Assembly (NCBI RefSeq): GCF_029392815.1
Contig: NZ_CP113942.1
Span: forward strand, 1,054,001-1,118,000
Source: Bifidobacterium sp. ESL0682
GTDB lineage: Bacteria; Actinomycetota; Actinomycetes; Actinomycetales; Bifidobacteriaceae
Direction of reading: 5' to 3'
Length of the DNA: 64,000 nt
The position numbers were made by a program, and so were the translations under genes. Within the stretch, counting starts at the first letter, position 1; each line of letters opens with the position of its first letter. Under the pieces are notes generated by a model. It saw only the letters and a program-made list of their open reading frames with translations. It searched no databases and was not told where the DNA came from. Positions 5,992 to 10,109 of the stretch are shown here, piece by piece.

Positions 5992-8735
5992 ATGAGTCAT
6001 TCACATCATTATCGTCATAACAATCATCGTGCAGACAATTTCGCCGATTCCGAGAAGACACCACGAGAGCAGTCGCGGGACGAACCCACACTTTCACCTT
6101 CGCAACGCTATGCCGCCTTCAAAAAAGAAGCTCCTACGAACGATCCGAAGCAGCACGATTCGCCAAGACCTTGCCATTTGAACTCGACCCCTTCCAAATC
6201 GAAGCCAACGAAGCACTCGAGGCAGGCAAGAACGTCCTGGTAGCGGCCCCTACCGGAGCAGGCAAGACCATCGTCGCGGATTTTGCGATGCATCTGGCCC
6301 AGCGCAACAATGTCAAGGCGTTCTACACCACACCAATCAAAGCGTTGAGCAACCAGAAATACCATGATCTGGTCGACCTGTATGGCTCCGAAAACGTAGG
6401 TCTGCTCACTGGAGATACTTCCATCAATTCGGAAGCGAACCTTGTGGTGATGACCACTGAAGTACTGCGCAACATGCTCTACGAGAATTCGAAACGCTGC
6501 GAGCCCTACGGTATGTAATCCTCGATGAAGTGCACTATTTGGCCGATAAATTCCGCGGTCCGGTATGGGAAGAAGTCATCATCCATCTGCCGAAGACGGT
6601 CAAAATCGTCGGGCTTTCGGCGACTGTTTCCAATGTGGAGGATTTCTGCGCCTGGATCGAGTCTGTCCGAGGTGCCACCCAAACTGGTCGTCTCCGAAAA
6701 ACGTCCTGTGCCATTGGAACAGCATGTGATGGTTCAGACCGATGACCAGCACGAGCCCGAGCTTTTGGACCTCTATCGGCACGACAAATCCGGCGTGCAA
6801 ACCGACAAACTGAATGCCAAACTCGTTGACCGTATCGACCAACTCGATCGAAGAGCCGCTTCACGCGCTCATGAAGAGCGCAGGGGAGGCAGAAACCGTC
6901 ATCGCAGGGGAGCGGAGAACCGACACAGAACCGGTCAGATGCGGCGCTATACACCGCGTCGGTGGGCTGTTGTCGATGAACTGAACTTCATGGGACTTCT
7001 GCCCGGCATCTATTTCATCTTTTCCCGTAACGGCTGCGACGAAGCCGTGGAGCAATGCCTGCGTGCCGGACTGGAACTGACGACCAAAGATGAGGTGAAA
7101 CGTATCCGAGCCATCGTCGATGAGATGGTTGAAGGGGAACTCGATCATGCCGATCTTAAGGCATTGGGGTTCGCACGTTTCCGTTACGCACTTGAAGAGG
7201 GATTTGCTCCTCATCATGCGGGCATGGTGGCGCTGTTCCGACAGATCGTCGAACGCTTGTTCGAAGAAGGCCTGGTCAAGATGGTCTTCGCCACCGAGAC
7301 TCTGGCTTTGGGCATCAACATGCCGGCCCGCTGCGTGGTCATCGAGAAGCTCGAAAAATTCAACGGCGTCGACCATGTCACACTGACACCAGGCGAATAC
7401 ACACAGCTTACCGGACGCGCCGGCAGACGCGGCATCGACACCATTGGCCACGCAGTCATTGTCGATCATCGAGATTTCGTACCAGCCACTGCCGCTTCGC
7501 TTTCCAGCAAACGTGTCTATCCGCTGCATTCAAGTTTCAAACCGACGTTCAACATGGCCGTCAACCTGCTCAATTCCAGCAGCTATACCACCGCTCGTGA
7601 CACGCTCGACCATTCGTTCGCACAATGGGAAGCGAACGAATCCGCCGAGGATCTTGAATCTCGTATTCATACCTTGCAGCATGCGGTTGATGGATATGAA
7701 CAGGCGTTCAAGTGCTCCCACGGTGATTTCAAGGAATTCATGACCCTGCGTCAACGCCTTTCGTATCTGCAGAAAGACGAACGACGGCACCTCAAGCGTC
7801 GCAATTTCAATAGCGACAAGGAACGCACACAGGCATTCCTCACTCTGGACCGCCAGATTGACCAGCTGAAGCAGCAGGAAAGCGAACATCCCTGCAAATC
7901 CTGCCCAGACTTCCAGAATCATCTCAAATGGGGCCATCGTTGGCTACGCGAGTCCAAGGAGCTGCGTCGTATCAAGGGCCGTTACGAGTCCCGTACAGGC
8001 TCTATGGCACGTCAATTCGACCAGATCTGTAAGGTGCTCTGCTCTTTGGGTTATCTCAAGGAGACGACGGAGGACTACACCAATGAGCTGGAAGCCGGCC
8101 GAAACGACACCAGGCGAGAGAGTATATCGGCCGGAATGAGTATGTCCACAAGATCTGCCGACATTCAACAGGTTGACGAGCAAAAGCATGACCGTGATTA
8201 TCGCCTTACCATGCGCGGCCAATTGTTGAGGCATCTGTACAGCGAATACGATTTGGTACTTGCCGAGGCAATCAGCGACGGCTTCTTCGACGGCTTGGAA
8301 CCAGAGGAACTTGCCGCAACGTTGTCCTCTTTGGTATATCACGCGCGCAGGGGAGGAGACAGCGAACCTCGTCGCTACCCTGGCGGTCCGGATGGCTCCG
8401 TAGCACGGGCTTGCCGGAGTCTGAGAGAAGTGTTCGCCGATGTCGAAATGATGCGCGAAGATGCCGACCTGGACGAGTTGGAACCGCTTGATTTCGGACT
8501 GGTCGATGTGATGTATGACTGGGCCAGGGGAGAGGATCTAGCGCAGATTCTGCATGGTACCGAGCTGACTGGAGGCGATTTCGTACGCAACGCCAAACGT
8601 CTTTCGGACATCCTTCAGCAAATCTCAACGGCCGCTCCATACTACGAACACGATGACCCGCATCTGGCCGAGGCCGCAAAGAAAGCAAACCAGCTCGTCA
8701 ACCGTGGCATTGTGGCGTATTCAGGCGTGGACTGA
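5992..8735 (+). CDS. helY: HelY-type superfamily 2 RNA/DNA helicase (three frameshifts as sequenced)
   Basis: Read through three one-base corrections this is a ~914-residue Ski2-like ATP-dependent helicase. Motifs in order: Walker A VAAPTGAGKT, TTPIKALSNQKY, DEVH box in VILDEVHYLAD, SAT in VGLSATVSN, NMPARCVVIEKL and motif VI QLTGRAGRRGID, then a long C-terminal region. The breaks are at an A6 run (6121-6126, one A short: QRYAAFKK continues as RSSYERSEAARFAKTLPFELD), an A3 run (6492-6494, one A short) and a C3 run (6678-6680, one C too many, restoring VRGATKLVVSEKRPVPL). The motifs and everything outside the breaks are intact, which points to sequencing error. The first ATG at 5992 has no clear ribosome site; the N-terminus is tentative. 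Confidence 0.8.
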
Positions 8736-8822: not shown

Positions 8823-9170
8823 ATGGCGGAACGCAGCCTGCGCGGTATGAGTATCGGAGCCAAATCACTCGAATCCGATGAAAATGTTGATTTTGCGGCA
8901 AGAACCGATGTGACGTATGTATGCCCGAAAGGTCATCGTACGATCCTTCCGTTCGCAGAAGGCGCCGAAGTGCCTGTCGAATGGGAATGCCGTTGCGGTG
9001 AAGTCGCCAAGCGCGACGATGCTGACCCAGACGAGATCGACGAGATCAAAAAGCCGACACGAACCCATTGGGACATGCTCATGGAGCGTCGTACCGAAGA
9101 CGAGCTCAAAGAACTGCTGGACAAGCGTTTGAAGATGCATCGTGAAGGTTGGTTCCCGGATTACGAGTGA
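8823..9170 (+). CDS. rbpA: RNA polymerase-binding protein RbpA
   Basis: A 115-residue actinobacterial RbpA. RbpA binds the housekeeping sigma factor and the RNA polymerase beta' subunit and stabilises the open promoter complex. Visible parts: the N-terminal RSLRGMSIGAKSLES, a zinc-ribbon-like core with CPKGH and CRCG (three of the usual four metal-site positions are Cys/His), a basic linker KKPTRTHWDML, and the C-terminal sigma-interaction helix ERRTEDELKELLDKRL. Length and order match the family from end to end. AAGGAG lies seven bases upstream of the ATG. It forms its own unit, with a rho-independent terminator 35 bp after the stop. Confidence 0.95.
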   Translation: MAERSLRGMSIGAKSLESDENVDFAARTDVTYVCPKGHRTILPFAEGAEVPVEWECRCGEVAKRDDADPDEIDEIKKPTRTHWDMLMERRTEDELKELLDKRLKMHREGWFPDYE

Positions 9171-9204
9171 GTCCTGAGGCACTCCGATAAATTATTTTTA
9201 TTAT

Positions 9205-9251
9205 GGCGATGACTGATTGATTGAATACTTACCAGTCATCGCCGTTTTATT
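9205..9251 (+). terminator. Rho-independent terminator of rbpA
   Basis: GGCGATGACTG (9205-9215) pairs perfectly with CAGTCATCGCC (9233-9243), followed by GTTTTATTGTT. Confidence 0.85.
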
Positions 9252-9442
9252 GTTACTTGTGTAGTCGTATCTCTTAGAATCGCGCTCAGAAAACTTGGCT
9301 GGATAACTGAATTACTATTAGCTATAGCTAAATCGTTACACGAACATGTATTTGGCTGAGCAAATAGCTTGTTATATATTAGTTCCATATATCACCGAAA
9401 TAAACGAGAATCATATATACTTACACAAATATCCGATAATGT

Positions 9443-9480
9443 ACGTTATGTCAGATTTCGAAGAAATCTCGACATAACGT
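9443..9480. repeat. Large palindrome A
   Basis: ACGTTATGTC at 9443-9452 is mirrored by GACATAACGT at 9471-9480, and inside it AGATTTC is mirrored by GAAATCT around GAA, with one unpaired base. The whole 38 bp can form one hairpin. Confidence 0.75.
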
Positions 9481-9523
9481 CGTCATGTTATGTGGCAAGC
9501 AAGCTTGCTTACATAACATGACG
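9481..9523. repeat. Large palindrome B
   Basis: CGTCATGTTATGT (9481-9493) is mirrored by ACATAACATGACG (9511-9523), with AAGCAAGCTTGCTT, itself palindromic, at the centre. It abuts palindrome A and shares the TTATGT core with it. Confidence 0.75.
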
Positions 9524-9726
9524 CACGCCCCCTATTGTTTCAGTACGAAGATACATATACAGCAGTGCAACGCAAAAAGAACAGCAATTATATTTGTCTT
9601 GCTGTTTATCATTTATTATCTGCTAATATTTGCCTGAGCTGAGCGACGTCCTAATATGCAGGTTCGAAATTATTTACTGTGCCGACTGCCTAATAATGAA
9701 CTATCGATGCCTCTATGCTTAGATGT

Positions 9727-10109
9727 TTAGTTGACCGTTGTGTGATGACGCCTGGAAAGAACTTCGTTGATGATGCTTCTTTGAGCTTGTTTGGCCTGCA
9801 GATACATCAGGACCAGCTCGGCTACAAAAAAGATGCCCAGAATGATTGCTGAAGGAATACCCAACACGGAATACCAATGCCGTATCTCACCGCTGATTTG
9901 GTCATGCATCAACTTGTAGACACCGTAAGGCGCACAGCAGAGGAACATCGAGACGATCTGCATGATTACGACTGACCATTGCACAGTCTCGACCTTGCGG
10001 GAATCGCCTTTTTGCGCAGCGCTCCGTTGACGATGCAGATTGCACAGATTCCAAGAGCCCAAAGCAAGGAAAAAATCCATAAAAATCCTGGCAATACCGC
10101 ACTTATCAT
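9727..10109 (-). CDS. Small polytopic membrane protein (frameshifted as sequenced)
   Basis: With one added base this is a ~127-residue protein with three hydrophobic helices: about 5-30 (LPGFLWIFSLLWALGICAIC), 44-65 (SVVIMQIVSMFLCCAPYGVY) and 80-105 (VLGIPSAIILGIFFVAELVLM), ending in a basic tail. The upstream frame starts at ATG 10109 behind AAGGA (five-base spacing) and is lost at the T5 run 10009-10013; adding one base there joins MISAVLPGFLW...ALRKK to GDSRKVETVQW. Reading only the downstream frame would give a start at 10080 but lose the first helix. I do not recognise a family. It lies beside the AT-rich palindrome region. Confidence 0.55.

Follow-up and report, generated by a model that had tools for sequence, protein, structure and literature searches.

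In Bifidobacterium sp. ESL0682, the predicted chromosomal dimer-resolution site dif is continued on its XerD side by two abutting hairpins, A and B, which very probably form the dif-proximal unit of a dif-linked element that is built of XerD-box hairpins and acts at the DNA level. The main role of this element might be the accessory loading or control of XerD, an assignment that is made tentatively; to the combined reading, a DNA-level array of such hairpins at dif with either of the two XerD roles described below, we give even chances. The gap in which the hairpins are located includes the 500-bp segment with the highest AT content (36.8% GC vs. 54.9%) in the window, the window being the whole stretch of 64,000 nucleotides that was analysed. 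The following features were assigned in and around this gap (window coordinates):

8823–9170, + strand: rbpA, encoding an RNA polymerase-binding protein, left neighbour (Pfam RbpA, 9.3e-40)
9203–9245, + strand: likely rbpA terminator, an inverted repeat followed by a T-rich tail
9429–9456, + strand: dif site with XerC arm (9429–9439), 6-bp centre (9440–9445) and XerD arm (9446–9456)
9443–9480, unstranded: hairpin A, one arm being the XerD side of dif and the other arm its inverted copy
9472–9478, − strand: inverted XerD box of hairpin A (ACATAAC), with 8 nt between it and the GTTATGT box of B
9481–9523, − strand: hairpin B with covarying outer arms, XerD boxes (9487–9493 and 9511–9517) and inner stem
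9574–9606, − strand: likely terminator of the membrane gene, an inverted repeat followed by a T-run on the − strand
9727–10080, − strand: small membrane protein, right neighbour, with relatives beside dif in other genomes

The sequence leading into palindrome A, GATAATGTACGTTATGTCAGAT, is arranged like a dif site, with a XerC arm, a centre of 6 bp and a XerD arm, the arm borders being placed by comparison with E. coli dif. The core occurs only once in the window and has a match in 108 of 112 genomes of the genus; the four genomes without a match are 74–78% complete in three cases and 98% complete in one. On the contig, dif occupies positions 1,063,429–1,063,456 of 2,093,512 and thus lies opposite dnaA, which was found at the contig start (Pfam Bac_DnaA, 3.2e-62). 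The site is also situated within the stretch where the GC skew switches sign: among 20 sampled stretches, the skew was positive in 9 of 11 to the left of dif and negative in 9 of 9 to the right, and immediately to the left it was about zero or slightly negative (−0.014 over 9.4 kb). XerD is encoded in the genome (363.6 bits; family cut-off 329.6), as is a XerC candidate, for which XerC was the best-matching model but with a score below the cut-off (301.9 vs. 335.15 bits). Judged by sequence, the genus-wide conservation of arms and centre, the location at the terminus and skew switch and the presence of XerD identify 9429–9456 as the chromosomal dimer-resolution site dif. Predictions of dif in single-chromosome Actinobacteria were reportedly made by Kono and colleagues. 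As such a site was predicted in 66 of 66 single-chromosome Actinobacteria (PMC3025954), dif itself was expected here, and the adjacent hairpin array is the part that seems to be new. Among the matches listed for literature on Bifidobacterium dif/Xer, dimer resolution, dif hairpins and XerD sites, no title or abstract opening describes such an array.

Two back-to-back palindromes at 9443–9480 and 9481–9523 had been described in an earlier note on this DNA, and their exact positions and their folding were confirmed. The fold of hairpin A comprises 17 bp, a single bulge and a loop of 3 nt (−13.7 kcal/mol as DNA, z −7.1); its left arm comprises the final three centre bases and the XerD arm (9446–9456) of dif, and its right arm is the inverted copy. 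Hairpin B adjoins A directly, has perfect 13-bp outer arms (−15.7 kcal/mol on the top strand, −16.3 on the bottom strand, z about −8) and consists, in this order, of six variable outer bases, GTTATRT, an internal loop, an inner stem, ACATAAC and the six mirrored outer bases. For a 116-nt stretch a fold z of −8.6 was obtained, which 0 of 200 shuffles equalled. The TTATGT core noticed earlier is indeed shared by A and B; its identity with the core of the XerD half-site of dif had been overlooked. In the same way, the proposal of a recombination site applies to that half of A which contains the XerD arm, dif as such having escaped recognition, and for the remainder of A and for B the option of a protein-binding hairpin on DNA appears to be the best reading. 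No XerC box was seen by eye in either hairpin, only boxes of the XerD type. The junction of A and B can be read as two XerD boxes facing each other across 10 bp, in comparison to 6 bp in dif.

Palindromes are not rare in this region, but this pair is. An inverted-repeat scan (arms of at least 13, at most one mismatch) returned nine places in the window, hairpin B and the likely rbpA terminator at 9203–9245 among them, vs. 0–2 in ten shuffles; hairpin A was absent because of its bulge. The box pattern GTTATRT-N(8-30)-ACATAAC, on the other hand, matched only A and B in the 2.09 Mb genome (one match for the control, in which the pattern was read backwards), and the pattern of the A–B junction was found only at this site. 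The covariance model R1 scored hairpin B with 58.7 bits on the − strand and 43.4 bits on the + strand, B being part of its training set, and gave no match in 400 kb of samples from the same genome. These results bear on the view that A and B are copies of a dispersed palindromic repeat of the REP or BIME type which lies here by chance. BIMEs are tandem hairpins with conserved cores, and the units at dif resemble them in this respect, but sites in the own genome occurred only at dif, as did the listed matches in the family (best candidates per genome). A dispersed repeat was rejected on account of this single location in the genome, and the view is extremely improbable. The end of an insertion element, also offered earlier, found no confirmation, since no element was seen and no dispersed copies were found; a mobile origin is possible and is discussed below.

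The box pattern collected 43 hairpins, 17 of type A and 26 of type B. Alignment A1, the main set, covers the 26 B hairpins except for two distal units whose outer arms do not pair, so that the pairing, strand and energy results for these 24 hairpins are flattered. Alignment A4 (29 rows) combines the 26 B hairpins with three distinct hairpins from G553 and G562, and the 36-row set additionally includes seven divergent hairpins, for each of which the strand with a XerD-like 5' arm was used. The 15 distinct A hairpins form alignment A2. Units too degenerate for the pattern (e.g. in G116, G002, G117 and G001) are outside all hairpin counts.

In the 29 B hairpins, 93.9% of the cells were paired, and the covariation score of 0.351 exceeded both the shuffled value (0.123; 0 of 500 shuffles reached the observed score) and the slid-partner control (at most 0.076); relatedness is ignored by the shuffles and kept by the slid controls. 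Double changes amounted to 17, 16 and 14 in the three outer pairs adjoining the box. Compensatory arm changes in relatives, which the earlier note had named as the check to be made, were also evident after addition of the divergent hairpins: 92.7% of the 13-bp stem cells were paired in the 36 hairpins, and 81 cells had changed on both sides vs. 23.7 in shuffles (0 of 500). Even the first box pair is changed from G-C to A-T in four divergent hairpins. The box is invariant in the 29 rows except for the wobble position, which is so by construction because it was part of the collecting pattern. Independent of this pattern, 19 of 20 arrays have both boxes in the hairpin adjacent to A, and the facing boxes of A and B are spaced by 8 nt in 19 of 20 arrays and, by eye, in five of six divergent ones. 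In hairpin A, the loop-side bases change on both sides as well (TTTC/GAAA, TTAC/GTAA and TTGC/GCAA; AAAAG/CTTTT in the divergent group). As read from these alignments, the hairpin structure is what evolution keeps, with outer arms that vary but stay complementary.

Palindromes might also be kept perfect by mutation, without any function, through template switching at a replication hot spot near the terminus. Correction by template switching yields paired arm changes in one step and keeps the arms alike without selection, and the site does lie where the replication forks meet. However, irregularities of the stem, namely the internal loop and an A facing a C on the top strand, are found uncorrected in most hairpins, the spacing of 8 nt is fixed, and 83 of the 108 dif loci of the genus have no such hairpin. 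This explanation is accordingly given a very small probability, and conservation of the folded structure is preferred.

Among 34 non-Watson-Crick cells in the 13-bp stem of the 24 main-set hairpins, 20 can form a wobble only on the bottom strand, one only on the top strand and 13 on neither; a single position accounts for 18 of the 20 bottom-strand wobbles. The DNA fold was more stable on the bottom strand in 22 of 24 hairpins of the main set and in all seven divergent ones, where the difference was once just 0.1 kcal/mol; the XerD-like arm is on the top strand in five of these seven. A predicted preference for the bottom strand is therefore clear in the main set and only partly borne out by the divergent members, and it is weak overall. 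The divergent hairpins argue for the proposed element by providing more lineages with compensated arms and against one of its steps by the strand result, which left the overall assessment unchanged.

The strand data are also relevant to the possibility that A and B act as structured RNA, for example as 3' UTR hairpins transcribed from the bottom strand and read from the right-hand gene. The wobbles of the main set would be G-U pairs on the bottom strand, where the RNA fold was more stable in 20 of 24 hairpins, and a gene for the membrane protein (12 array loci) or a MerR gene (16 array loci) faces the array wherever it was found. Yet both neighbours in the window have a likely terminator before the array, the terminator at 9574–9606 preceding it for a transcript coming from the membrane gene, and no Rfam family but tRNA reached the gathering score in the window. 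The membrane gene was detected by tblastn in just 12 of the 20 first-found array loci, and in four others (L004, L005, L036 and L041) the right-hand sequence is different by eye while the array is still with dif. The overlap of A with dif and the XerD boxes would, moreover, be a coincidence. In a survey of 20 array loci, terminators were found on the left in 8 and on the right in 7, vs. 4.6 expected on each side; as this shows no clear enrichment, the RNA explanation is weakened rather than closed, and it is quite improbable. A known RNA family at A and B was rejected on the basis of the Rfam result. An intrinsic terminator was rejected as well; the absence of a T-run after either stem, as stated earlier, was found to be correct by eye, and a loose scan flagged one weak terminator-like stem across A and B.

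The gene rbpA lies left of dif in 20 of 20 first-found array loci. The membrane protein on the right had been regarded as an orphan, which it is not, as in 31 of 53 loci, its own among them, tblastn detected relatives no more than about 1.5 kb away from dif; in L042 and L043, the right side probably holds diverged copies of the membrane gene. In 7 of 53 loci (L011, L012, L015, L016, L017, L023 and L049), the genes on either side of dif have changed places with respect to its orientation, as expected from inversions centred on dif. Further to the left in the window (about 6516–6745), a helicase-like gene (6171–8735) seems by eye to leave and re-enter its frame, with a stop at 6516–6518 and continuation in another frame from 6530; this appears to be due to frameshifts or sequencing errors.

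At least 25 of the 108 genus dif loci carry the module, as do two sister-genus genomes, and wherever found it lies on the XerD side of dif. Of the 189 family genomes, 20 contain the exact A-type pattern, namely 18 of the 112 own-genus genomes and two from another genus; this is an undercount given the exact pattern, and the same may apply to the sister genera. B-type hairpins were detected at E 0.01 in 19 of 189 family genomes, likewise an undercount with only the best candidates per genome scored, and all listed matches are within about 300 bp of dif. The first 18 genus genomes with the module came from BLAST and the exact pattern. When R1 was applied to the remaining 90 dif loci of the genus, 0 of 33 in one set and 7 of 57 in the other contained divergent B hairpins (G012, G023, G036, G068, G083 and G099; G081 only at E 0.13); an A-type arm was recognised by eye in six of these seven, G012 being without A, and G114 has A and no proper B. 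The lack of such a hairpin at 83 of 108 loci indicates that the array is dispensable for dif. In these 83 loci, an inverted XerD arm (at most two mismatches) was present on the XerD side in 8 vs. 1.2 expected from shuffles, and the controls gave 1 (direct orientation) and 2 (inverted, XerC side); the eight arms are possibly traces of the array.

Across the phylum, the own genome was the sole match (exact core or model) among 396 genomes, a sample with no other member of the family and a denominator that includes genomes with or without a recognisable dif. Members named in the pattern scan are B. simiiventris, B. amazonense, B. tibiigranuli, B. subtile, two ESL isolates and one binned genome; the carriers with ESL-series strain names presumably come from bee guts. 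On a DnaA tree of 59 of the 60 genomes fetched (G003, a partial hit, was left out, and many genus genomes are absent), the 26 array genomes require seven changes, of which four are forced by well-supported branches; with only the 20 first-found array genomes labelled, five changes are required and three forced. One clade of this tree has the module in each of its 13 genomes, always with a high-scoring nearest hairpin (53 to 66 bits). RbpA sequences within this clade share 89.6–100% identity with the own copy, whereas for the 90 loci not among the first 18, the 61 sequences that aligned over at least 100 residues reach at most 86.1%; 21 of the 108 loci show no RbpA and were left unplaced in this comparison. 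Some clades appear to have kept the array stably for a long time, and its overall distribution looks patchy.

By eye, arrays consist of one to about five units, and distal units decay. In 12 arrays with at least two scored units, the unit nearest to dif scored best in 10, tied in one and lost in one, the scores deriving from the R1 model, which was built from many of these same units. This polarity would also fit an attachment structure, remnant or live, of a small single-stranded-DNA element that uses XerCD and enters at dif like CTXphi, each entry depositing a unit beside dif and older units being pushed outward and decaying. The patchy spread, with seven changes and four of them forced, and the tandem units, best kept next to dif in 10 of 12 arrays, agree with this explanation. 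So does the junction of A and B with its facing XerD boxes and 10-bp centre, since CTXphi attP1 is described as having a 12-bp centre and folding with inverted attP2 (PMC4246890), and IMG/VR contains a provirus (L069) that resembles filamentous phages and has a dif-type repeat at each end. However, phage or mobile genes were not seen in the arrays, XerD boxes and no XerC box were recognised by eye, and, unlike a relic, the nearest hairpin is kept high-scoring in 13 of 13 main-clade genomes. INPHARED gave no phage match, plasmids gave just pieces of 21 and 22 bp (E 0.3–0.9), and the strict hairpin pattern occurred in no IMG/VR contig; the loose pattern matched at least 120 stretches there, most of which would be expected to be chance matches. 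A plasmid or phage end was rejected on these database results. The explanation by a mobile element is unlikely, if worth serious thought, and a chromosomal element serving XerD is preferred.

Several other Xer-linked sequences were observed. The provirus L069 (1–7976) encodes a Rep_1 protein and a protein with matches to the Zot family and to PHROG morphogenesis proteins, and its right dif-type direct repeat has four mismatches on the XerC side; it appears to be a phage using the bifidobacterial dif. To the right of an exact dif, the IMG/VR sequences L065 and L067 are the same, which suggests another element inserted at dif; L066 and L068 (exact dif core) share a different right side. The right side of dif in L363 (G126) resembles the left end of L069 by eye and is possibly an integrated relative of it. 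A dif-like site, GATAAGGGCGGTTATGTCAGAT, occurs with a near-identical right flank at three places in two genomes (L219, L220 and L221; G020 and G069) and probably belongs to a mobile element with its own Xer site. In L222 (1947–1988; G089), a truncated and a full dif-like core lie almost in tandem. The own genome encodes, at L217 (702165–702776), a recombinase which matches the XerD model below its cut-off and lies beside HsdS-like frames (by eye), an arrangement as in phase-variable type I restriction systems.

The hairpins share the XerD half-site, sit on the XerD side of dif and have compensated stems, and on these grounds we propose that folded hairpins hold XerD beside dif. Array DNA that is single-stranded or extruded as a cruciform would fold into hairpins whose stems display the XerD half-site. 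Right of dif, the bottom strand would, according to the GC skew, be the lagging-strand template of the right-hand fork and thus presumably the strand that is most often single-stranded. XerD would then bind the folded boxes, and the array might hold or position it beside dif and so tune dimer resolution; alternatively, the array might serve XerD in a terminus role such as SMC unloading. Since the XerD arm is consumed when hairpin A forms, an active dif and a folded A would be mutually exclusive, which might constitute a switch. The existence of a family of conserved hairpins which reproduce half of dif, and which turned up nowhere but beside dif, suggests a hitherto unrecognised accessory part of the chromosome-separation machinery. 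A bolder version, which is distinctly improbable, would be an integron-like platform run by the housekeeping XerCD, in which dif is the double-stranded acceptor and the hairpins are folded single-strand sites, units being added at the dif end and the nearest one kept by the host to control dif.

The site dif is usually treated as a bare 28-bp site, and several bifidobacterial lineages extend it with structured DNA derived from half of dif. If XerD binds the hairpins, they would provide a handle on Xer recombinases acting on folded single strands outside phages and integrons and on the positioning of XerD at the terminus, and possibly a clue to the origin of folded recombination sites such as attC. 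The covariance model R1 can serve as a search tool for the array.

Among known systems, the dif/XerCD system is the same in its 28-bp site near the terminus and in the XerD and XerC-like recombinase encoded here; it differs in that, in the descriptions given by the sources, dif consists of 28 bp, with no folded array of XerD boxes attached. A Rfam entry exists for the STAXI motif. According to PMC2864571, this motif occurs in tandem near genes for the handling of DNA, and single-stranded DNA was considered for it; it shares the tandem structured arrangement with the array but is a pseudoknot with UUCG loops.

Tyrosine recombinases are described as acting on a folded single-stranded site in the case of CTXphi attP(+) (PMC4246890, PMC5357621), in which, according to the first of these sources, attP1 with its extended 12-bp centre pairs with inverted attP2. 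Intra-strand pairing of inverted dif-like boxes and an extended centre between boxes are common to attP(+) and the array. In contrast, attP(+) is portrayed as phage-borne and about 150 nt long, with XerC and XerD boxes and 90 nt between its halves, whereas the array consists of short hairpins without phage genes seen beside them. Instead of the XerC and XerD boxes on a folded strand that mark the CTXphi type, A and B contain by eye only the XerD type, and in place of a single-stranded-DNA phage as carrier, INPHARED and the strict search of IMG/VR yielded no match.

The R box of integron attC sites has the consensus GTTRRRY. These sites are likewise recombined as folded single strands by tyrosine recombinases, as outlined in PMC2727003, and they correspond to the array in their hairpins with covarying arms, in conserved stem irregularities, in tandem arrangement next to a double-stranded site and in bottom-strand preference, which for the array is predicted and limited to the main set. 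They differ in that the array has the box GTTATGT, units only tens of bases apart and no cassette genes, and the XerC-like protein, the only recombinase of the genome compared, scored far below the integron-integrase cut-offs. The XDS of B. subtilis are XerD-binding sites reported to unload SMC, and no hairpins are mentioned for them in the excerpts of the two sources (PMC10945525, PMC12322038); what they have in common with the array, for which XerD binding is proposed, is XerD near the terminus with a role beyond the resolution of dimers.
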